64,000 nucleotides of DNA, taken from Macrophomina tecta (taxonomy: Eukaryota > Ascomycota > Dothideomycetes > Botryosphaeriales > Botryosphaeriaceae). The notes under the pieces were generated by a model that was given only the letters and a program-made list of their open reading frames with translations, had not been told where the DNA came from and did no database searches. Each line of letters starts with the position of its first letter. Position 1 is the stretch's first letter. Shown here piece after piece: positions 16,669 through 58,438 of this stretch. Both the position numbers and the translations under genes were made by a program. The DNA lies in assembly GCA_024180945.1 (NCBI GenBank), contig JAKSGN010000016.1:310001-374000 (forward strand), read 5' to 3'.

Positions 16669-17158
16669 TGTTACGGTGTAGCCTCTATAAAATTAGAAAA
16701 TAGTAGAATAAGATAGTAAGTAGAAAGCTCGGGTATAGCATAGAAAGAACCTACGCGTGTTTACGTAAAGTATATAACGCTAAGATAGTACTCTCGCTAC
16801 TCCGAAGGCACTCGGACTAGAATACCACGAAGCACTTAAAGTAGAATAAACTACTCTATCTACTTCTAAGGTTACTGCCCTTCCGAGAGATAGAGTAGAT
16901 AGATTAGAAACTAAATTATAGATACTTTTCTACTTATATATAAACTATACTTCTTAGATAGCTTTAACCTTCGTAGTTAACTTTAATAATAGAATTTAAA
17001 TTCTATTAGTAATACGGCCTTTGTACGTAGTGCTTAGTCTTATTACGTGCTCGACTTACTCTTACCCTCTTCTTATATCTACTTAAGAAAAACCCCCTTA
17101 ATAGATTTTCTCTCTCTTTAGTATTTAAATTCTTAGAGATAGAGGCCCGCTTATTATA
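16669..17158 (+). repeat. Gypsy-2 5' LTR (490 bp)
   Basis: It starts TGTTACGGTGTAGCC. The sequence right after it (CTTTAACTACTATTCT, 17159-17174) is nearly the same as after the Gypsy-1 5' LTR, so the two families probably share a primer. Confidence 0.93.
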
Positions 17159-23970: not shown

Positions 23971-24460
23971 TATTATGGCGCAGCCTCTATAGGGTTAGAA
24001 AACAGCAGGATAAGGCAGTAAGTAAAGAGCTCGGGTACGGTGTAGAAAGAACCCACGCGTGTTTATATAAAGTACGTAACGCTAAGACAGTGCTCTCGCT
24101 ACTCTAAAGGCGCTCGGACCAGAATGCCACGGAGTACTTAAAGTAGAATAAGCTACTCTATCTACTCCTAAGGTTACCGCCCTCCCGAGAGACAGAGCAG
24201 ATAGATTAGAAACTAGATTATAGATACTTTTCTACCTATATATAAACTATACTTCTTAGATAGCTTTGACCTTCGTAGTTAACTTTAATAATAGCATTTA
24301 GACTCTATTAGTAATACGGCCTTTGTACGTAGTACTTAGTCTTATTACGTACTTGACTTGCTTTTACCCTCTTCTTATACCTACTTAAGAAAAACCCCCT
24401 CGATAGGTTTTCTCTCTCTTTAGTATTTAAATTCTTAGAGGTAGAGGCCCGCTCATTATA
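23971..24460 (+). repeat. Gypsy-2 3' LTR (490 bp)
   Basis: It starts TATTATGGCGCAGCC and ends GCTCATTATA. It is less mutated than the 5' copy. Confidence 0.93.
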
Positions 24461-24720
24461 AAGAGCTTAGAGGTTACGCGTTCGAATTTAATAATTGGTA
24501 AGCGATATAATTCTTTACTATATCTACTATAACTACCCTCGCGACTCTACTAAAAATCCGAATCCTTGAGCTAATTTGTTATTTTTAGTGAGGGGGTATA
24601 TTAGATATATATATTAGTTCCACCACCCCTAAATATTAGGGGGTAGGGGTATAAGAGGCCCCCTAGTAATATAGAGTAACTAGACGAGTTTCGTTCTTTT
24701 ACTCTATTACTAATAGATTA

Positions 24721-26269: not shown

Positions 26270-26351
26270 AGGCAGAAGTACACAGGCAGAAATTCGATTC
26301 TTTCTTCTGACCTCACCGAGTTCGGGCCTGAGGCCCCCCCACAATTCGACA
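26270..26351 (+). repeat. Truncated LTR of the 270-bp family
   Basis: The sequence AGGCAGAAGTACACAGGCAG and the following 60 bases match the end of the solo LTRs at 50722-50991 and 52949-53218. Confidence 0.85.
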
Positions 26352-42900: not shown

Positions 42901-44787
42901 TTTATACGAGCGTATATATTATAGTACTTAGATAGCTTCTAATCTGTAATAGCCGCTCCTTAAACTACCTTAGGTAATACGTTAACAGCGTTTTAGCCTA
43001 TATAGATAAATATATCATACCACTAAGTAGCTAGCAATGATTAGATAATAAGATTCGAGTTAACCTTTAAATTATTTAACCCCTTATTATACTCTATAAA
43101 GAAGTAGTTATACTTAAAAATTAGATTTGCTATAATAACGTCCTTCTTATAGAGGTATAAACGATCTATATTTAACTAAACACCCTTATCCCTTACCTTA
43201 GTAATGGAGATAAGGTTAGCCTTAAATAATAGTACGTAGGCTACGTTTAGTAGAATAATAACGTGGTTTCCTTATTAGTTAATTATATTAATTATTACTT
43301 CTCTAAATACTTTGATTAGTATAGTTAAATTTCTAGCTATAACGTAATTATCTAGACTTATATTTCTAGTTTTCTTAAACCATTTCTGTATAAATCGATT
43401 ATAGATATAGTGCGTAGAGCCTATATTAGTAATCTATAAGAGCTTAAGTGTAGTAGGTTTAGTAACGTATTATATACTAAAAGCCGAGGCTACTACGGCT
43501 AGAAATAATAAAGAATTACTATTATCTAAATCGTTTATTAATTACTAATCTTACGGATTCTCTTATAGCTTCTAAAGAGTTGGATTCTTATATTTATGCT
43601 TAAAATAGTTAAGTGAACGCTCTACCTAATACTTAGTTTATGGGTCCTCTAGGCTCTTTTTAATCTTAGCCTAAAGCTTCTTATTAGGCATCTAATTAGT
43701 CGGTCTAATTACTATATTATAATACGCGCATTAGTTATACTAGTAATTCTTTTTATATATATATTTAGGAGGACCTCGTTTTTACTTTTAATTATATAGT
43801 ATAGCTAGTAGCTTAGTAAGCTTACTATTCTAAAGCCTAATCTTATAGTTAGTAGCCTATTAAGTATTAAAAGATGAGAGCGCTTTTAAAAAGCTTTTCT
43901 TACCTCGGTTACTAGAAATATTAGGTAGGTTAAGTAATTCCGCCTTAAATAGCATTTCTATCTATTAATCTAGCTATTTAGCGATATTTTAGCTACTAGG
44001 TAATTTCTTAAGCTACTTTAGCTAATTTATTATAAGGTCTTCTTAAGTCTTCTATATAGGCTAAAGCCGTGCTTTAAGTGTAGATAGCTAAGAATAAGGG
44101 TATAGGTTATTTCTTAGCTTTTAAAGAATCGGTTAAAGAGAGAAGCTAATAAAGTCTAAAATAATTATTAATAGATTATTAATTTTCTTTTCTAGCTTCT
44201 TATATTCTTGAAGCTCTTATTTATAGTCCTTATGTTATAGTTTATAACGCTTTTATACTTATATAAAGTCATTTTTTAGCTCTGTAGGGCTACGTAGCTT
44301 AGTTAGCTAGATTAGCTTCTCTATAAGGTTCGGATTAATATAGTCGAAGATTTTCCCCTGCTTCGCTCGGGCTTAGATAGTAAAATACTACTTATTCTAG
44401 TTATCGAATGACTTAAGGATAATAATAGGCTTTAATAAGGCTATAGTTACTAGTAGTAGCTAGTAGTTACTTATCGGATAATCGGGCCGAGTCTCGTAGC
44501 CGTAGGTAACTTAGGAAAAGTGCTAGTATGTAGTAAAACTCACTTAGATAGCTAGTATACCTACTAGGAATGCTATACCTAAAAAGGGCTGCTAAAATAG
44601 ACACTTAGTAATAGTTTAGATAACCGTTATAAAAATAATGAATAAGGGAGGCACTTAGCTCTGCTTATAACTATATAGTAAAAGAATGCTAAGCGAGATG
44701 TCCGGATACTATAAAACGCTTAAACGTAGTATAAAAAGGTACTTCTAGAGGATAGCTTAGATTATAAAAGGCACCTAAGACGCACCT
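39950..44787 (-). pseudogene. Copia-2 Gag-Pol, RIP-degraded
   Basis: From right to left on the plus strand: gag (about 44787 to 43400), gag-pre-integrase (43350 to 43030), integrase (about 42950 to 42280), RT (about 41640 to 40600) and RNase H (about 40420 to 40000). Order and spacing match Copia-3 and Copia-1. No open frame longer than 60 codons remains. Confidence 0.8.
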
Positions 44788-46110: not shown

Positions 46111-46948
46111 TATTTTATATAGTTATCTAGAGAAGTTTATTAAATATATAGAGAGCTAGGTATAATAGCTTACGTCTAGTATAACGTTAATAGCTTAAGA
46201 GATTAGCGAGGAAAGTATATTATAAATACAAGTAGCTAGGTTATATATATTATTACCTAGAATTAACTCTCTATCTCTAATATTAGTAGCCGCATATTAG
46301 GCTTTAGAATATTTAATACAAGATAAGATTCACACTTAATTACTTTAGAAATTTATAACTATAATGGATTAGTTTATAAACCCTTGCAATAAGTTATTTA
46401 AAAGGCAAAAGCTACTAGTAGTAAATATAAGAAAATTAAAGGGAGCTTAAATAAATTAATAAGAGATAAAGTTAAGGTATTAGTGGCTAAGGTCCCCTAG
46501 TATATCTATAACTTATAGGTCGTATGAGAATAGTATATAGGCTAGGCTCTATAGTTAAAAATCGTAGTTATAATAGATATACGAGTTTTAATATATATTT
46601 TAGCAGAAATATCACAATAGAAATATAACATAGAGAATTAATATATAAGTTTAGTGGGCGTATTCTAAATAACCTTAACTATTAATACTGCGAGCTATCG
46701 TCTCTCCGAGTAGCTAGAATAAGGCCTCGGAACTTATTTAAAAATAGTCGAGTTTAATAGCTAATAAAGTTATACGATATATTACTAAGTCTATTAAAGA
46801 GTAGTATATATATCGGCTCTCTCTTATTTAGCTCTATCTAATTATTATAGCTAGACCTCAAAAGAAACCTAGTTACTCTGATATTATTATATTAGTTATT
46901 AGTCTTCTCGAGTGTATTATCTCTTTAGACGCCCTACTATAGAGTATA
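46111..46948. other. RIPed AT-rich sequence, not recognised
   Basis: About 840 bases with no readable gene. It ends with AGAGTATA (46941-46948), the left TSD of hAT-1. Confidence 0.4.
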
Positions 46949-48342
46949 TAGTATGTCTAACCACCCACCGGGCGCTTAGGTGGGCGGTAGGTGGGTGCTT
47001 AGTAATCCGCCCGCCCGCCCGCTACTTAGCTGCTCGCCCACCCGCCTAATTAATAGACGGGCGGTAGGCGGGCACTTAGGTGGAAGACGCCTACTGTAAG
47101 AAGCGATTTCACAATACTTACTATAGTATTAAAGCTAAGTAGCATCTATTCTCCCTTACTTATGGAGACTATGCAGCTAATAAGGTCTTATTATTAGTAT
47201 ATTATAAGATATTAACTACTATGTATATTATCTATATACTTATTTGTTTCTCTAAGAAAGCTTCTTAATAGAATATAAGCCTAATCGTTAGCTAATTAAT
47301 ACCTTAATACCTAATTTAGTTAAGCTTACCTCGGCTATAGTATAAATATCTATAGCTAGCGCTACTTATTAGTAGAAGAATAACTAGATTTTCTATTATT
47401 AGTTTTACAGACTAGTTCCTATTTTAAGGCTTATAGGACTATATACTATTACTTCTTAATCCTTTAAACTACTACTATATAACTAGTAGTCGATTCTTAT
47501 ATTTCTATTTCCTACGCTACTCATTTCGCTGCTGTATATAGCACTATATTAGTAGATAGTTATACTAGTAGTAGTAGATTTAACATTTAGTTTCTATACT
47601 ACTATCTATCGTTTAACACAAGGCTATTCCTACTTAAACATTTTAGAATAATTTCATACTATTAAAGCAAGAATTAGAGTTAGCTATATATAGAAACTAC
47701 CGCCCTTCTATTAAATACCTATTTACTTATATAATTAATTGTTTCTACCCCTTATCTATCTACTCTAATGTTACTGCTGCCTTTATACTAATACTTATTA
47801 TATATAAATTTAGGTTAGCTCTTCGTCTATCCCTAAGAAATATTTGTACCTACTAAGCATGTAAGATTAACTTATTAGTATTAACTTTTTAGTTTCTATA
47901 GCAATAAACTGCTTTCTATAGCGAAATTCGATCTTTTATATCACTTTCTCATCTCTCTCTTCTCTTAGAGCGACTTATATACCTAATCCTAACTAGATTC
48001 TACCCTCTACTAAGTGCCTATTAACTCTAGCGACTCTATTAACTCTAGTATCCTCCGATATAAGCTATACCTGCGCTTTCGACATATAGTGGGATAAGAT
48101 AAAAGTTAAAGAGCGGTTAGCTAGGGAAGTGCGCTTTAGGCCATGCCACCGTAGTATTATCAGTACTAATAGAAAGCCCTCGTGAATCTATAACCATGGA
48201 GCTAATCTTAAGAATACTAATAGCACGTGTATCTAGGTCTATAAGCGCTGTTATCTTAAGGGCTATTTTCACAAAGGTGTGTATTAAGGCGGTAGTACTA
48301 ATTACTAAGTAGTAGAGGGTCCATCGTATCCCAAATCCTAAT

Positions 48343-49303
48343 GGGGTAAATTCGAAATCCACACCTTAGAGGATTAAATTTACTAAATCTATACACCCGC
48401 TCTAAATCCACACCTCCGACGTGCCACCGCATTAGTGCGATGGCATAGACAGACGCTTTACCTTATTATATTCTCGCTTATTTAGCGCCCGTCGCATAGA
48501 CAGGGATTTCTATATCTAATTTAAGCAATAAGGTCGTGAACTCAAGGCTTAAGAGCCTTAAGCGAGAGATTTACGTCCTCTAATCGCCCTGAACACCACG
48601 CGCGCGGCGTCTACGGACGCTAGCATCATCGCCGTTATCTAGTACGTAGATAATACCTACTCCTACTCCCTCGCTAGCGCACACACCTGCGCCTGCACCT
48701 GCGCCTACACTAGGGCGTATACCGGGGCGCGCATCGGAGCCCTCGCAAGGGCCGCAGCGCAGAAGCAAGCGCGCTAGGCCGATAGTCGACTACGTAGCGC
48801 TCGCGGGCAAGCGTCCCAGGACGATTAGATGAGGATAATTGACAAAGATGTGTGGATTTGGATCAGCGAAAATTAAGAGCAGTGTGGGTTTAGATCAGGG
48901 TAGTTGATAGAGATGTGGATTTGGACCAAGCTTGTTTAGGCATGTGGATTCAGATTTTAGACTATTCTGCTAAGAAATAAGGGAGACTTACAATCTTAGA
49001 CTTTATACGTGTGTCCAACGAGGGCACAAGGCGCCTCATTGCATTGTAGAATGCGTTTAGGCGCTAGCGCGCGCAGAGCGGGGGTTAAATGTCAACACCG
49101 TGCCAAGACATACGATAGGGCGGCGATCCTGCAAGCAGTGGCGGCGTATACGAGGCGACCCTAGTCTGCGCTCGGCCGCTAAGAAATTAGCGGCGCCAAG
49201 CGACAGCGCACGGCCGCGGCCTATCCACGGAGGTGTGGATTCAGAACGGGTGTGTGGATTCGGTGAATTTGACCCTCTGAGGTGTGGATTTCGAATTTAC
49301 CCC
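48343..49303. mobile_element. Non-autonomous MULE-like element (961 bp), 9-bp TSD AATCCTAAT
   Basis: The ends are GGGGTAAATTCGAAATCCAC and its complement; the inverted repeats extend about 77 bp. AATCCTAAT is repeated exactly at 48334-48342 and 49304-49312. A 9-bp duplication with long inverted repeats is typical of Mutator-like elements. Subterminal direct repeats (GTGTGGATT) occur at the right side, about 48849-49290. The interior is GC-rich with a low-complexity CACCTGCGCCTG run, and near 49100-49230 a short frame resembling the start of a helix-turn-helix transposase. No transposase of its own is complete. Confidence 0.8.
49100..49230 (+). pseudogene. Fragment of a pogo/CENP-B-type helix-turn-helix N-terminus inside the MULE-like element
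   Basis: The plus-strand frame reads AKTYDRAAILQAVAAYTRRP, a stop (TAG), SALGR, then a jump to ISGAKRQRTAAAYPR. This looks like the DNA-binding start of a fungal pogo-like transposase with a piece missing in the middle. It may be captured sequence. The recognition is from memory only. Confidence 0.35.
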
Positions 49304-49312
49304 AATCCTAAT

Positions 49313-50721
49313 AAGCCAGGCCGAATTGAGCCTGAGCTGCCCGCTGAGGGAGTCCCTGCAACTTACGTTGTTGCGGCGCCTTTTCACGACATCCTCTTTA
49401 AGCGCGAGTTCGTCGACTGCGTAATCGCCGAGGATCTAACCTTCCACCAAGCAACGAGCAAGCGTCTACGCGACGTTATACTCCATGGCGGCCCAGGCGC
49501 GTATCTAATGCTCGCTCAGAGTCCTACAAGCATTAGTTCCTGGGTTAAAGACACGTTCGAATCGAGGCGTGAGGTCGTTAAGAGTCTCCTTTACAATGTA
49601 AAGAGCAAAATCAACATTAGTACGGATATCTGGAGTAGTACTAATAAGCGATCCTACGCAGCGATCTGCGCTTACTTTGTTGATTAAGTTGGCAAGCTCC
49701 GTGTCCTCCTCATTGGCCTTCCGCGGATTTTGGGCCAACATACAGGCGCTAATATTGCTTACTGCTTGGTTAAGGTCTTTAGGATCTATTAAATTGAGGA
49801 CCTAATCGGGTCCTTTATCGCCGACAATGCTACCAACAACGATACCCTTCTTTAGGCGATCGCCCGTGATTTACCTTACCTTGACGGTAATAAGGATCGC
49901 CTCTGCTGCGTCGGCTATATTATTAACCTTGTAGTTAAAGCCCTACTCTTTGGCAAGGGCCTTAGTAAGCTAGAGAAGGATCTGCTAGGTGTAGACGATA
50001 AAGAGATATTCTTGCGCTGGCGAAGGGAGGGCCCAATTGGCAAGATTTATAACCTATGTGTGTGGGTCAATCGCTCTGATTAGCGGCGCTAGAAATTCCT
50101 GGCTGGGCAGATCGACTTAGCTGAACTGGACGAGAATTTTGATGAGGACGGTGATCCTGAGTTCTACTACCAATTGCTTGTTGATGGAGGAGTCCGCTGG
50201 AACTCAGTCTACTATATGATTAAGAGAGGTAAGCGTTCCGTAGGCTCTTAAGGACATGTTGCTAATAGATTACCTATACATCTCTTAGGCTGCGGACTGT
50301 AATCGACCTTTTCTTCCTCCGCTATCGCTACAACAAAAACGACGAGGAGGACATGAGCGAAGACGCCCTCTCTGACGATGATTGGCACTAACTGGAGCTC
50401 TTTTACGCACTCCTCAAGCCCTTTAAAGATCTGACAAAACACATGGAGGGTAATGCGAATAAAGGGGGTAGGGAGGGTAGCCATGGAGCTCTATGGGAGA
50501 CGCTTAAGAGCATGGACTTTATGTACGCTCACCTGGAGGGCGCAACCGACGATATCAACGCGAACCCTGCTGCCTTCAGCGAGCCGTATACCCTCGGCGT
50601 TGACGCCGCTTTTTTGAAGCTCAATGAATACTACGACTTAACCGATAAGACCCCTCTCTACAGAGCAGCAATTGCACTCTATCCGAGCATGAAGTTCGAC
50701 TACTTTCACGAATACTGGAAT
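49313..50721 (+). pseudogene. hAT-1 transposase, N-terminal and central part
   Basis: Readable segments are STDIWSSTNKRSYAAICAYF (first catalytic Asp region), SFIADNATNND (second Asp), the RLCCVGYIINLVVKALLFGK box, VRWNSVYYMIKR, and a last open stretch ending YFHEYWN at 50721. In-frame TAA/TAG at 49685, 49788 and 49851 and others look like RIP of Gln codons. A GTAAGC...GCTAAT...TTAG pattern at about 50229-50290 may be an intron. The gene stops at the 270-bp LTR; its C-terminus continues in frame on the other strand at 52948. Confidence 0.85.
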
Positions 50722-50991
50722 TGTCAACCAGAATCCCCTTGTTTTTTAGGCAACACTTATCATTGCTTCCTTAGGCTCTACATTGATTCCTTCCTCGGTA
50801 TCCCCTACACCTCGGATCTTCTACTTTTCCTCGGATGTTCTCAATTCCTCGGTTATACTGTTTCAGAGTCATGTATTTAAGGACACTCATTCTCCTTCAG
50901 TTAGAAGGACAGGCAGAAGTACACAGGCAGAAATTCGATTCTCTCTTCTGACCTCACCGAGTTCGGGCCTGAGGCCCACCCAAATTCAACA
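50722..50991 (+). repeat. Solo LTR A (270 bp)
   Basis: It begins TGTCAACCAGAATCCCCTTG and ends CCCAAATTCAACA. Its flanks do not match: GGAAT on the left, GAAGT on the right. Its inverted twin at 52949-53218 has the reciprocal flanks. Confidence 0.9.
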
Positions 50992-51112
50992 GAAGTCTAT
51001 TCAGGAGAGGATAAAAGGCCACTCCACGGCCGCCCTCCTCCAACACCATGCCAATCTATGCCAATCCACTTTCTTCATCACTGATTAAGCTGTCACATCA
51101 CTTGTTCCAACA
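50992..51112 (+). repeat. Copia-1-type solo LTR, piece 1 (split by LTR B and the inversion)
   Basis: It ends CATCACTTGTTCCAACA at 51112, like the Copia-1 LTR. The missing piece is 53219-53260. CTTTT follows it (51113-51117), the complement of the AAAAG found after 53260. Confidence 0.88.
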
Positions 51113-51548
51113 CTTTTCCGTGCTTATGTTGCTGCCCAAGGTGACGCGTCATATTCTCCGTACCGCCAGATTTTGCATACTGAACGACGGGATTTCGCTT
51201 CTCTTTCGTGCAAAATTTGCATACCCAAATGCAGTCTCCGGTGCGGTTATGTTGTAGTCTGTATCCGTGTTTTCAAACCCACGAGGTGTACCCGCGTTTC
51301 GAGTGGTCTGGCTTTCGATATTTCGGGTATTTAGCCCAGGATAGACCGGCGTAGAGGTCTTCGTCTTCGGTATCGCGGTCGTAAATATCAAGAGGCTCGG
51401 AGGTAGATCGCTGTGTCTCTGCAGACAGTGCAAGGGCAGACGGAACGGTCGGGTTGCTTTGAGCTTCAGAAAGGACGTCGGTCACCGTGTCGGTCGCCGT
51501 GTCAGTCGCTGCATCGGTTGTCGCGTCGGTCGCCGCGTCAGTCGACAT
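51113..51548 (-). pseudogene. hAT-2 transposase, N-terminal part with BED zinc finger
   Basis: The minus-strand ATG at 51548 opens MSTDAATDATTDAATDTATD, a Thr/Asp-rich leader. After DEDLYAGLSW and GYTSWV comes one stop (TGA where TGG is likely), then a BED-type zinc finger (CKFC followed by HLGQQHKHGK). It ends at the LTR insertion point. The frame then continues exactly at 53261 on the plus strand (KDGPIKKRRIEEFM). Confidence 0.88.
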
Positions 51549-51905
51549 TTTAGGGGTTCAAGTAGTGAGATTGGGGTGAAATTCGATGAATTTTGTTGGG
51601 ATAAAAAACAGCGCGTTTGTGAGGCCTGGGGACGCGTTAAGGGCTTAGAAGGATAGACCGAGGCACCGGGCAAACACCGGTACAAATATGATTGGTTGGT
51701 AACGCGGTCTATTCGATATTTAACTAGCTGCATTGCAACATAAAGCATCCTAAATGCTTCGAAAATCACCGATATTTACACTATATAAATTTATACAGTC
51801 GGGCCAGTCTCGCAGTCGGTCTGGCCCTTTTCAGACCGACTGCATGCCAGACTGCAGTCTATGCAGTCGGTCTGGACCATTGGGACGGACTACTGCGAAC
51901 TATGA
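51549..51905 (-). other. hAT-2 left terminal region with subterminal repeats
   Basis: GCAGTCGGTCTGG and CAGACCGACTGC repeats occur at 51800-51880. The terminus GGACTACTGCGAACTATGA (51887-51905) matches the right end at 55516-55534. These are probably the inverted repeat and transposase-binding sites. No matching TSD was found. Confidence 0.65.
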
Positions 51906-52246
51906 GTTCTGCCTGACGCTGATAGATCCGTACCAGCATGGATGTATGAACGCTCAGGATGGTGAGGCCTATCTTACCTAGCTCGAATGAATTGCAAGTA
52001 ACTATTTTAATACGCATTCATAGCTACTTCGCAGCTACAGGCCATAGTCCGACTATGGCTGTTGCTGATGGCCGCATTATCATTCATTCTCTGGAGTTGG
52101 AAATCGGGCAAATACCACCTCGGCAGCAATTCCGCCCGGCGGCGCAGTGAAAAAGCTAATAACTGCATGCAACCGCGCGAATGAGTGAGGTAGGCGTGAC
52201 TGAGGGGTATCTCAGTCCATCGGTCGGGAATACAACAATGTACTCT
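51906..52246. other. DNA between the two hAT elements
   Basis: About 340 bases, not recognised as coding. It ends with TGTACTCT (52239-52246), the hAT-1 TSD in reverse complement. Confidence 0.5.
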
Positions 52247-52463
52247 CAGCGTGTCCAACCACCCGCCCGCCCCCGCCCGGCCCTACGGGCGGGCGGGCGA
52301 GCAACCAGCGTTCGGCGAGCGGGTGGATTACGTAACGAGGGACCCGGCGGGCGGGCGGGCGGGTAAATCAGTTATACCAGATCGGGTAGTCCATGATAGA
52401 GCTCCATAGTGTTGAAATGGTTATCAAATTCGTCACCTATCGTAGAACGCTGCCTCCCGCACC
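52247..52463 (-). repeat. hAT-1 right terminus (inverted)
   Basis: Terminus CAGCGTGTCCAACCACCC, followed by GC-rich CCGCCC/GGGCGG repeats to about 52362. Confidence 0.85.
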
Positions 52464-52948
52464 TCACATACCTTCTTTAAAGAGCCCTGCTCGTAGCCAG
52501 TGCTTCTGACATTCCTCCGCTTCAAGCGTATCGTTACCCATGCGGTTGCGGTCGTCTGTAAGGATCCTTTTGGTCTGGCTGAAGACTCGTTCGCACTCTG
52601 AGCTCATGGCGGGTATACTAAAGAGATTCATGGCCATTCTTTGTAGGACAGGCCACTTCCCTCCCTTCGTAAGCCATCAGTTGAGCGGGTCCTTGATCTT
52701 GCTGTTGGTTACACCAATCTCCATATACGAATCAAGCTCACTAAGGATCTTTCGCCGCTTAGCGCTCCTGTGCGTGCCCTTAACGCGGCCAAATCTGCCA
52801 AATTCGTCATTAGAAGACGATTCTGCATCCTGCTGCGTAGCTGCTGCTGCAGCCGCTGCGTCTTCTTTAAGCCATGCCTTCTCGTACTTCTCGTAGAGCT
52901 CCCGAACTGAGCTCTTCGCCGTTGTAATCCAGGCAGGGTGTTCATTCC
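52464..52948 (-). pseudogene. hAT-1 transposase, C-terminal part with dimerisation domain (inverted)
   Basis: On the minus strand from 52948 the frame of 50721 goes on: EHPAWITTAKSSVRELYEKY, an Ala run, KRRKILSELDSYMEIG, then the hAT dimerisation domain with RMAMNLFSIPAMSSECERVF and RNRMGNDTLEAEEC. It stops at 52464. One internal TGA sits after DPLN. The open part at 52709-53068 in another frame is a shadow. Confidence 0.88.
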
Positions 52949-53218
52949 TGTCGAATTTGGGTGGGCCTCAGGCCCGAACTCGGTGAGGTCAGAAGAGAGA
53001 ATCGAATTTCTGCCTGTGTACTTCTGCCTGTCAATTCGAACGAAGGAGAATGAATGTCTTAAATACATGAAACTAGAGTGATATAACCGAGGAAATCAGA
53101 GTATCCGAGGAAGTGTAGAGCATCCGAGGTGTAGGGGAGCACCGAGGAAGGAATCAATATGGAGCCTAAGGAAGCAATATCAAGAGATGCCTGAAAAACA
53201 AGGGGATTCTGGTTGACA
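52949..53218 (-). repeat. Solo LTR B (270 bp)
   Basis: Inverted twin of 50722-50991, same length. The flanks ATTCC (52944-52948) and ACTTC (53219-53223) do not match each other, but match those of LTR A in a crossed manner. Confidence 0.9.
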
Positions 53219-53260
53219 ACTTCCCTTGGCGAAAGCTAAATACACGTGATTGATCCAACA
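53219..53260 (-). repeat. Copia-1-type solo LTR, piece 2
   Basis: It ends CACGTGATTGATCCAACA at 53260 and is followed by AAAAG, the TSD. Confidence 0.85.
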
Positions 53261-55287
53261 AAAAGACGGCCCTATCAAAAAGCGCAGGATCGAAGAATTT
53301 ATGCAAGAAGGGGAGACCGCGGAGCAGGCTTTTCACAATAGACGGGTTGAGTCTTTCAGGCCTCAACGGTTCAAGCGGTCTCTCGTACGATGGGTTGCTA
53401 TAACGAATATCCCGTTTTCGAACGTGGAAACCGAGCCGTTTCGCCGTATGATGACCGATGCGAATGCGAATCTACAGGCTGCGGGCTGTCTACCCGTTGC
53501 AAACACCGTGAGATCCTGGGCCGAGGCCGATTTCAAGATAATTCGATCAGTCGCTGCAAAATAATTGGAGACCGTGCCGTATAAGCTACATTTTACGTTC
53601 GATTTATGGACTGCTGAAAATGGCATTTGCTTAAACGGGGTATTTACGCACTGGATTAGCGACGACGGCACAAAACAGAAGCTTCTACTTAGTCTACCGG
53701 AAATAGACGGCGGTTATACTGGCGAACGCATTTCCCTTGGATTATAAATGACTGGAACCTGAAAGACCGTGTCGGATACTTTATCATTGATAACGCCGTC
53801 AACAACAATACCTGCATGAATCAGCTGGCGACCGAGTTCAATTTCGACCCCGTGGCACGCCGTCTACGCTATATCTGTCATATTATCCATTTAATTACCA
53901 TGCAGATCATGTACAGGGTCGACCTCGATGCAGTCATAAAAAAGCTCAAAGAATGGCGCGATGAAGGCCCGCTGGGAAAGCTACGACGACTGATCATGTT
54001 TATCACGGATAAGCATGCAGATGGGGGTCGACTGCGTACATTTAAGGCCATTCAAAGCGAGCTAAAGGAGTTTTTACGGCTCGACCCTTTGCCAGGCGGC
54101 CGCCGGCCGCATGTCAGTCTATTGCGGCCAGGTGACACGAGATGGAACAGTCACTACGACGCGTACGAAGCTGCAACCGACCTCCGCATCGTTCTAGACG
54201 AGTACTGCGGCCGCGAACATAGACTTTATAAGCAGCAATGCGAGTTAATTGCTGAAAAAAAAAAACCCGTCTCCGCGGCCCCAAATAAAAAACAGATAAA
54301 TATCCCTGAGCGACCTACGCCGGTGATTGACAAGCCGACTGGCCACGATTGGTCTGTCATCACGCGGTATATGGAGATACTACGGCCATTAAAAATGGTG
54401 ACGAGAAAGCTCGAAGGGGACTTGAAAGACAGTTCGTTTTGCTGCTTTTAAATGACTATATTTGCTAATACATTAATAAATAAATAGGTCAAAACGGCGG
54501 CCTATGGGATGTTCTCCCATCGTGGGAGCACTTGCTGAACGGCCTTGAAGAAAAGACCGCGGAATATGCGCAATACCGAGACGAATACGACATCGAATAC
54601 GACACATTCGAACATATTCGAATTAGTCTTCAACTCGGGTGGCAAAAAGCGAGGACATACTACGAGAAACTCGACGAGACTTCTGTCATCGTTGCTGCTT
54701 TCGTTCTGCACCCTAAATATCGAATGACGAGGCTCTGGTACCTTTGGGAGGGCCGTGATGACTGGATCGAGAGGTTTGAGCAACAATTTGATGATTTATG
54801 GCAGTCTTACAAGAAAAAAGACATTGGGACACAGTCGAATATGACGGCCATGGCCGCAGGCGACCCGAATTAGTCAAAAAAAGACTGGCTGCTTTCATTC
54901 CTTGAGGACGACGCGCAGTTGAACGGCCCTTACCCCGATATTACCCAAAAAGAAGCAGACGCAGAGGCCTGGCGGCAGCGAGATCGAGACAAAAACGTTG
55001 AAGAATACGACGAAATGCACGAGTTTCAAAACGCCGCAGACAGCGGCTTTGCCGCAGTCGTCGACCCCGTCAAATTCTGGATTGAAAACAAGTACCGCTA
55101 GCCGCATGTCTCTTTTATGGCGCTCGAAATCTACGGGATACCGGCGTCTAAGGCAGCCAACGAAAGACTATATAGCCAGACAGGTGATATAGTGACAGAA
55201 AGGCGTGGTCGACTAAAAGCAGACACCGTTGGGGTGGCTCAATGTCTCAGACAGTGGGATACAGAGCGAATTATTGATCATCGTTAA
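53261..55287 (+). pseudogene. hAT-2 transposase, central and C-terminal part
   Basis: It continues the BED-finger fragment at 51113-51548. Segments: KDGPIKKRRIEEFMQEGETA, FKRSLVRWVAITNIPFSNVE, a TAA after SVAAK, YKLHFTFDLWTAENG (first Asp), a small frame shift near 53740, GYFIIDNAVNNNTC (second Asp), RRLRYICHIIHLITMQIMY, then a likely intron (54432-54487, branch GCTAATAC) before NGGLWDVLPSWEHLL. The C-terminal region with FMALEIYGIPASKAANERLY is the dimerisation domain and ends at 55287. Stops at 54871 and 55099 look like RIP or Gln-codon changes. It is damaged but recent compared with the RIPed blocks. Confidence 0.88.
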
Positions 55288-55534
55288 CGTACGCCGTGGC
55301 TTGTAGGTCATTTAGGACTTTAAATAGACCGATTCAATTGATTTCTATGCATTTTGGGTCTGTTTTTGCATGCCGGGGCCGTGTATAAATTACTCGATTT
55401 TTATTAAGTGGTCTGGCAGTCCGTCCAGTCTCGACCCCTAAAACTGCAGTCTGTGGCAGTCGGTCTACCGGTATGACGCGTGCAGTCGGTCTGACGGGTG
55501 TCAGACTGGACCGACCGACTACTGCGAACTATGA
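55288..55534 (+). repeat. hAT-2 right terminal region
   Basis: It contains GCAGTCGGTCT repeats (55456-55492) and the terminus GACTACTGCGAACTATGA (55517-55534), the reverse complement of the left end. Confidence 0.65.
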
Positions 55535-56619
55535 TCTATGTCACGGGTTGGACCCGTAGGATGCCTTGGATGATTCCTGCGGCAGGTAGCCAGTGGAGGG
55601 AGCGAGAAAGTTCGAGAACATGCCAAATCTGGAAAGTAGTCAGTGCGCAGGGTGTATATTACTCGCACTGCCCTCGTCTTTTATCTATTCCTTTTCTCTC
55701 CAGCTTAGTCTTCTTGTAGGTAGCAATGCCACTGCATACCCGCGAACGCACCGGGTGCAAGCCCTCACAATCTACACTTCAATTATCTCAAAGGTTGTGA
55801 TGGACGATCAGTGCGCATGAGAGGATGAGGACTGTGTTGATTGTTAACGAGTGTATCTAGCTATCAATATATAGAAAGGAGTGTTAGTAGGCAACCGGCC
55901 TAGTGTAAACAGTGGGAGGCAGCAATAGGCAGCAGTAGGCAACTATGCGCACAGACGCTCACATCTCGAGGAAGTTAACAAATTATGACTTACTTTTCCA
56001 TCGACGAGGATTATAAATCATAGGAAAAGCATTCGTCTAATCTGGCGTCAAACTTGGAAGTCCGTACGCCCCCTGCTTCACCAATCGGTTACAGACATGA
56101 GCAGAAGTATCTATACCTAAACTAAGATTCGATCGTGTGGTTTCAACGTAACTCGTTCTGGTGCGGACCGCTTCTGGTTTTATGAATCATCTTTTGAGCA
56201 GCTGCGCGGTCTTACGGCAGAACCGCTGATTTCGCACTTCGTTGAACCGAAGGGTTTCGGTTACCGTTGCCGCAAAACCGCAGGACCCGCTTGGATCGCG
56301 GGAATTTGACCATTATCATCTGCGAGATCGATTAGCGAGAAAGAGCGGTGACTGATCTTGCAATAGCAGTTCCTAAAATCTGGTATACTGTAACCGAGCA
56401 AACTAATCGTCCAGGTTCCGTTGGATCCGGAGATCCCGGTTGTATGGTCCTATATGACGTGCCCACGCCAGCGATTGAGTGACGGAGAAGATTGCCATAG
56501 CCATCACTAAAATCAAGGGTTTACCTCTCACTTGTTCTGCAGACAGATCCACGTTTTCCACTTCCCCCTCTATCCGTAACCTTTGTCCTTCTCAGCATTC
56601 CCGTCTTCCCGTGATTATC
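55535..56619. other. Upstream region of the NCS1 permease gene
   Basis: No gene recognised. The first part is plain intergenic DNA with a GGCAGCA/GGCAGCAGTAGGCA repeat near 55917-55940. From about 56190 there are GGTTTTGC/GAACCGAAGGGTTTCGG inverted motifs that may be regulatory. The 120 bases before the ATG are pyrimidine-rich, as is common for fungal leaders. Confidence 0.45.
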
Positions 56620-58438
56620 ATGGAGTCCATCCAAAAAGCGGTGCGCGCGGCTTTCGGCACCGGCCTTGTTCTTTCGTCGACATATGAACAAACGAATAAG
56701 TGGATCAACGATGACATCCGCCCGCTTCCACCCCACCGGCGCACGTGGCGCGCATGGACGTACATCAGTTGGTGGTCCGTCTTCATGTTCAGCATCACGA
56801 ATTGGCAAGTCGGTGCATCGTTGATTAGCCTGGGGCTTTCGGTATGGCAGTGCATGCTGCTCATTCTCGCGAGCCGTGTGCTGCATGCTTGCCTTGCCGT
56901 CGCCTGCGGAATGCCGGGAGGGCAGTGGCACATTGGCTTTCCAGTCGTCTCACGGCTGGTCTGGGGAGTCTACGGCTCGTTCGTACCCATCGTCATGCGT
57001 CTCTTCATCGCCATCTTTGCTTTCGCTTTCAACACGTGGTACGGAGGGCTCTGTACTACCGCCATGCTGCAGGCCATGTCGTCCAGCTTCAATGATTTAG
57101 CTGCCCGGTTCCCGGCATCCTCCCACATCACGATCCAGGAGCTAATCGGATGGTTGGTCTTCAACGCGCTGATGTTGCCTATCCTCGCCATAAAGCCCGA
57201 AGGTTCCCCCATTATTTTTACCGCTTTCAATGCAGTATCTGTCGCGACCCTTGTTGCCATCATGGTCTGGTCTCTTTTCGCTGCAGATGGCGCAGGACCA
57301 ATGCTGTCCAAAAGCACTGTTGCGGTAGGATCTCTAGGTTGGACGGTAGTCAAAGGACTGTCCACGTCTTTGGCTAGCATGATAGCGCCGCTGAGTCCGT
57401 CTCCATTTACTTACGGCTGTCATGGTGTATGCTGACGTATACTTCAGTGAGTCAATCTGATTTTTCCCGATTTGCACGTCGTCCAGGAGACCAGATTGTG
57501 GGGCAATTGGTCAGTTTCATTGGTCTGGGAAGCATTATGCCACTTTTTGGGTGCTTGGCTGCATCTGCCACGCAGAAGACTTGGGGTGAACCTGCCTGGA
57601 ATCCGCCGTCAATCATCACAGGGTGGTTGCGGCAGGACTACTCTCCTGGCACGCGTGCCGCTGCCTTCTTCGCAGGAGCTGGCTTGATGGTAAACCTGCT
57701 TAGCTTGAACACAGTCGAGAATGGTGAGTTTGCCGAGTGTATTGTTCGGATGCTGGCTAACTTTCGTCCAAAGGCTATGCCGTCGGCATGGACATGGCAG
57801 GGCTACTGCCACGTTACATCAACATCCGACGTGGCGCCTACATAGGGCTCATCGTATCAATGGCTCTCTGTCCATGGCAACTTCTTGCCTCAGCAACCAC
57901 CTTTACAGCCGTGCTCAATGGGTTCGCAGTGTTTTTCGCACCCATCTGCGGAATCCAGATTTGCGACTACTTCTTTATTCGCACTCGCCGCATCAAGCTG
58001 ACGGACCTCTATCATTCACAATCCTATGGCATTTACTACTTCTGGCACGGCATCAACATCCGCACGGTAGTTGCATGGCTATGTGGCTGGATCCCGCTCG
58101 TGCCAGGGCTTGCGAGGACGGCAAATCCGGTGCATGCTGCACAAGCAACCCTCGGCATTGAACACATCGACCGCCTTTATGATCTCAACGTATTTTATGC
58201 CTTTTCTGTTGGATTTGTCGTTTATTATGCTGTATGCAAGATCTGGATGCCACCGGCACTCGGCGAAACAGACGCTGAGGACGTTTTCGGGACCTTCACA
58301 CCAGCAAATATCGGCACTCTCCAAGCCACAAGCTCAGTAGATAGCACTAATGGTCATTCAGTAGCCGGCTTTCATGAGGCAGTAAGCGGAAAACGCTTGG
58401 ACAAAACTAACTCGCTCACGTTGGCACCAAATGTTTGA
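56620..58438 (+). CDS. NCS1-family permease (uracil/uridine/allantoin/thiamine type), three exons
   Basis: Exons 56620-57394, 57448-57723 and 57774-58438 give 1,716 nt and 571 residues. The second intron (50 nt, GTGAGT, GGCTAAC, AAAG) is clear. The first (53 nt) uses GTCCGT with branch GCTGAC and is less certain, but it restores the family motif before SDFSRFARRPGDQIVGQ. An acidic cytosolic N-terminus and RRTW lead into about 12 membrane segments. Family blocks are seen at GFPVVSRLVWGVYGS, PLFGCLAASATQ, GYAVGMDMAGLLPRYINIRR and ICGIQICDYFFIR. It is a proton-coupled plasma-membrane importer of nucleobases or related compounds; which one cannot be told. The first ATG in the 56479 frame is less likely, as that leader is not family-like. 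No damage seen. Confidence 0.9.

Follow-up and report, generated by a model that had tools for sequence, protein, structure and literature searches.

An exchange between two solo LTRs lying in opposite orientation, whether by crossover or by template switching, very probably flipped the DNA between them in the genome of Macrophomina tecta. The locus lies in a 64,000-nucleotide window (bases 310001-374000 of contig 14), the whole stretch of DNA analysed here. Inversion through these LTRs explains the crossed 5-bp duplications beside them, three interrupted elements and the duplication flanking one of these, the transposon hAT-1. Instead of rebuilding the ancestral locus, we sought copies, in the same genome, of the elements cut by the inversion. 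This comparison adds independent support, as the paralogs have the unflipped order. An earlier note on this DNA had called the locus an unusually complete record of such an event; four kinds of evidence do agree on a single event, but the target duplication of a second transposon, hAT-2, remains unmatched.

The two LTRs, LTR A (50722-50991, forward strand) and LTR B (52949-53218, reverse strand), are each 270 bp long with TG...CA ends, and the inverted segment between them spans 1957 bp (50992-52948). LTR A has GGAAT on its outer side (50717-50721, forward) and GAAGT on its inner side, and LTR B, read in its own orientation, is flanked by GAAGT and GGAAT. The inner GAAGT (50992-50996) reads ACTTC on the reverse strand and is the displaced half of the site B target duplication, the outer half of which, ACTTC, occupies 53219-53223 (forward). 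Likewise, the displaced half of the site A duplication, GGAAT on the reverse strand (ATTCC on the forward), occupies 52944-52948. This arrangement, as described in the earlier note, was borne out with coordinates agreeing to within one base. Flipping 50992-52948 back does, as had been claimed, give LTR A a GGAAT on either side and LTR B an ACTTC on either side, each a perfect 5-bp duplication; all 20 flank bases of the crossed duplications match, and no base was gained or lost at either breakpoint.

Both LTRs belong to a multicopy family with TG...CA ends and a 5-bp duplication. Genome searches with LTR A and with LTR B returned at least 41 matches each (40 candidates scored). Flanks were readable in 29 copies, LTRs A and B included, with perfect 5-bp duplications in 14, one mismatch in two and at least two mismatches in 13. 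Five of 34 loci (L021, L029, L030, L032 and L034) were dropped from this count, their LTR being partial or its ends unclear; L017 has uncertain ends, and about nine more listed places, mostly partial or about 81% identical, stood outside it. LTRs A and B formed the only exact reciprocal crossed pair among the 29 copies, in a test that left out pairs whose copies both have perfect duplications. There was no second such pair; the sole other pairing was L005/L007, which belong to a duplicated stretch of 3.27 kb and each have nearly matching flanks of their own. For the other 11 copies with mismatched flanks, including the duplicated locus L024/L025, no partner was found among the fetched copies, as deletions or non-reciprocal events would predict. 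The duplication extends over at least 3.27 kb with 99.97% identity in both L005/L007 and L024/L025, and the latter pair lies on the 23.6-kb contig 26 and on contig 7. Two more A-type LTRs in opposite orientation, L012 and L014, lie only about 0.4 kb apart on contig 12 (407249-408162); their flanks are not crossed, with a perfect duplication at L014 and an unmatched one at L012. Two B-type copies on different contigs, L023 and L026, share, besides the LTR itself, no more than 26 bp of 3' flank and none of the 5' flank, an apparent sign of non-reciprocal exchange.

Aligned with each other over 271 columns, LTRs A and B show 36 differences. LTR A differs from one other copy (L002) at 2 of 270 positions. 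LTR B is identical over its 270 bp to two others (L018 and L019), so the event is probably young. At 33 diagnostic columns (positions 26-186), LTR A was in the A state at all 33 and LTR B in the B state at all 33. The states were set from 16 other A-type and 11 other B-type copies, A and B excluded, in a test made slightly circular by subfamilies having been assigned beforehand by overall similarity. The two LTRs therefore come from two subfamilies, each with many other copies, and from two independent insertions; that they might be the two LTRs of a single element was rejected on the same ground.

The earlier note had proposed aligning the two LTRs to locate the crossover tract. With both LTRs pure subfamily types, no such tract is visible. 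LTRs A and B share an uninterrupted run of 80 identical bases close to the 3' end, which is the inner end of both; we rejected this match as a conversion tract because, in the alignment of other copies, the final ~84 bp of the LTR are common to both subfamilies, barring scattered changes. Position 206, a weak marker, is G in LTR B and in 2 of the 11 other B-type copies (L018 and L019) and A in the other nine. No mixing of states was found at the 33 diagnostic columns, and a crossover would escape this test if it fell within the first 25 bp or the final ~84 bp. The missing chimeric LTR, which would be the most direct mark of a crossover, counts against the best explanation; with no chimera visible, the exchange falls in one of these two shared tracts, and by length the 3' tract would be the more likely of the two. 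The boundary near LTR position 187, 25-30 bp past a TATA-like stretch, would suit the end of U3 and the start of R-U5. Elsewhere in the window, the 82-bp 3' tract that LTRs A and B carry has a match of 95-96% identity at 26270-26351; this match follows a sequence unmatched to LTR A, which recurs at 16910-17151 and 24212-24461 (84%). In copies L021, L029 and L030 the match is confined to the first ~183 bp. The LTR family has a modular appearance, its parts joining near position 185.

The transposon hAT-1 is split between a 5' part running up to LTR A (46949-50721, forward) and a displaced 3' part (52247-52948, reverse). One of the four hAT-1 pieces scanned matched PF05699, the hAT C-terminal dimerisation domain (E 8.9e-16), at 52464-52673 in the displaced part. 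Queries of 110 codons from the left piece and 160 codons from the displaced piece, with one stop masked as X, were used to find paralogs. Besides the window's own copy, the left piece matched 14 loci (L036-L049) that correspond to 12 distinct places, with L041, L045 and L049 overlapping among the 14. At each of the 14 loci the two pieces lie side by side on the same strand, and so they adjoin collinearly at all 12 of the distinct places, in agreement with the claim that un-inversion rejoins the hAT-1 frame. Five loci (L036-L040) are closer relatives, with 67-83% identity in the left piece (for L038, in its better stretch), and the remainder are more distant hATs at 49-53%; L043/L044 and L046-L048 are probably copies of one another.

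The ends of hAT-1 are consistent with the same reconstruction. Un-inversion recovers the 8-bp duplication that the earlier note had reported, with AGAGTATA just before the 5' part (46941-46948) and AGAGTACA beyond the displaced part (52239-52246, reversed) matching at 7 of 8 bases. The 18-bp terminal repeats beside it match at 14 of 18 positions, with all four differences being C>T or G>A, and a search of the window's forward strand for this repeat with up to five mismatches found these two places only. In the present order both repeats point in the same direction, which cannot be the case in an intact hAT element. Among the relatives, L040 has the right-end repeat with two mismatches and L038 has a perfect 8-bp duplication, GCAATTGC. 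Paralog homology starts only near 49300, and 46949-49300 was assigned to hAT-1 by the terminal repeat and duplication alone. The distance from the left end to 49300 is about 2.4 kb in the window versus about 0.9 kb in L038, leaving the 5' part about 1.5 kb longer than in that relative; the part after 46949 is AT-rich in places. Judging from this length, 46949-49300 probably holds a further insertion.

The remaining two interrupted elements are nested. A solo LTR that the earlier note named Copia-1-type is divided into a displaced 5' piece of 120 bp (50992-51111, reverse) and a remaining 3' piece of 42 bp (53219-53260, forward), the latter followed by AAAAG (53261-53265). Four of the 39 other listed copies were fetched, and in three (L053, L054 and L055) the pieces are contiguous, as un-inversion of the segment would make them; the fourth, L056, has no 3' piece and gives no support for that join. 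hAT-2 consists of a displaced 5' part with AAAAG at its inner end (51112-51904, reverse) and a remaining 3' part (53261-55533, forward). These parts are contiguous in both paralogs, L051 and L052, which upholds the proposed rejoining of the hAT-2 frame. L051 differs from the window copy at 11 of 791 positions in the N-terminal part and 67 of 2255 in the rest, the N-terminal part being the nearer (Fisher p 0.013). Mismatches to L052 are C>T/G>A in 135 of 142 and 450 of 473 cases, the mark of repeat-induced point mutation (RIP); L052 is, by this pattern, RIP-mutated. No Pfam match was found in the three hAT-2 pieces scanned, and the name hAT is that of the earlier note.

Un-inversion does not restore the 8-bp duplication of hAT-2 itself. 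The 17-bp terminal repeats of the window copy are intact (51888-51904 and 55517-55533), and the outer 8-mers, GCAGAACT and ATCTATGT, do not match. Both paralogs have the 17-bp repeats within perfect 8-bp duplications (ATTACAAT in L051 and GGCTTTAG in L052). A further solo LTR of 231 bp (55539-55769, TGTCA...CTCACA) with a perfect ATCTA duplication lies 5 bp from the end of hAT-2, and eight other genome copies match it at 99-100% identity. It was considered as the cause and does not explain the mismatch, since the 8-mers remain unmatched with this LTR set aside (GCAGAACT versus ATCTACAC). A search for partner 8-mers within the window found, apart from the two flanks themselves, one additional occurrence of ATCTACAC, in reverse at 44078 and without any evident connection. 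The unrestored duplication means that another event happened there, likely a further rearrangement or the formation of a chimeric hAT-2; given that its N-terminal part is the nearer to L051, the element may combine parts of two copies, or adjacent DNA may have been lost. The mismatch is without bearing on the LTR inversion.

The locus probably arose in four steps. hAT-1 would have inserted and acquired RIP-like C-to-T changes, with hAT-2 inserting about 330 bp away. A Copia-type element would then have entered hAT-2 and been reduced to a solo LTR. Next, LTR A would have inserted into hAT-1 at the target GGAAT, and LTR B, in the opposite orientation, into the Copia-type LTR at the target ACTTC. 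We infer this order for the first three steps. Finally, the two LTRs would have paired over sequence that both contain, most likely the ~84 bp at their 3' ends, and an exchange, either intrachromosomal or involving sister chromatids, would have flipped the 1957 bp and swapped the inner target duplications. A genome search with the 333-bp spacer for an unflipped allele found the window's own copy only.

The same product would result if the flip was real and used the two LTRs but proceeded by replication template switching or break-induced repair, an unlikely though by no means negligible route. The tracts available for exchange are short, at 25 and about 84 bp, the 26 bp of 3' flank shared by L023 and L026 may reflect a non-reciprocal exchange elsewhere, and the 11 partnerless copies with unmatched flanks also fit such a route. 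The breakpoints, with no base added or lost, are as a clean reciprocal exchange predicts, yet switching can be clean as well. We infer that reciprocal crossover was the probable route, and give template switching a clearly smaller share. A further rival reading is an assembly artefact. The 80-bp perfect inverted repeat at the inner LTR ends could have confused a short-read assembler about orientation, such that the true locus is unflipped and its middle was turned by the assembler. We consider this very improbable, given that the 54.1-Mb assembly comprises 37 contigs, including one of 5.1 Mb, that the window is free of N, and that L005 and L007, with 3270 bp at 99.97% identity, were kept apart at two places on one contig. 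This separation and contigs of several Mb suggest assembly from reads longer than 3 kb.

Aberrant (hybrid) transposition, in which the ends of two element copies together invert a segment, can leave similar duplications according to PMC2775673, where the model predicts identical copies. LTRs A and B, with their 36 differences and different subfamilies, are far from identical, and solo LTRs lacking an internal region would not be expected to transpose in this way, making this reading highly improbable. Chance is the least probable of all, to the point of being negligible. Unrelated LTRs could have flanks that match crosswise, and 13 of the 29 copies, A and B included, do have flanks differing at two or more of five bases; for one given pair, however, both matches would arise with a probability of about 9e-7 from the flanks alone, using the window's own 5-mer frequencies. 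Moreover, the same un-inversion heals three other elements, and the paralog comparison disfavours chance. LTR-LTR exchange is thus the reading that we retain.

In yeast, ectopic recombination between dispersed LTRs of the Ty/delta type causes rearrangements, and the present locus is similarly an ectopic exchange between dispersed LTRs. In plants, inter-element recombination has been inferred from mismatched duplications at solo LTRs, mostly as unpaired products, whereas the present locus retains the two reciprocal products, separated by 2 kb. Exchanged target duplications are an established signature of TE-bounded inversions, according to PMC2775673, which describes inversion 2z3 of Drosophila buzzatii with opposite Galileo copies, exchanged duplications and chimeric copies. 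The present locus resembles it in having two homologous, oppositely oriented TE copies, one at each breakpoint, whose target-site duplications have been exchanged (PMC2775673). Galileo, as presented there, is a DNA transposon at a chromosomal inversion, whereas the elements here are 270-bp solo LTRs at a 2-kb inversion in a fungus; both Galileo copies are described as demonstrably chimeric, whereas no chimera is visible here; and non-inverted chromosomes are reported to have been sequenced in Drosophila, whereas the ancestral order here came from paralogs of the interrupted elements (PMC2775673).

The locus is a clear, well-documented new example of a known process; the mechanism is textbook, and knowledge of inversion mechanisms is unchanged. 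What sets it apart is an unusually legible reciprocal LTR-LTR exchange, in which 5-bp duplications, two transposons, a third LTR and an 8-bp duplication agree, and an unflipped order that paralogs reveal with no need of a second genome. It also illustrates genome rearrangement by short LTR fragments that bear little RIP. We speculate, with considerable doubt, that in this RIP-competent genome RIP passes over short solo LTRs, which stay near-identical and so become the main live substrate for local rearrangement, and that the 1957-bp segment may still flip, with both orientations segregating in the species. A search with the first piece (56479-57432) of an NCS1-type permease gene, which lies in the window beyond the locus, returned named relatives mostly from filamentous ascomycetes behind two unnamed best hits. 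Both this piece and the second (57761-58435) match PF02133.
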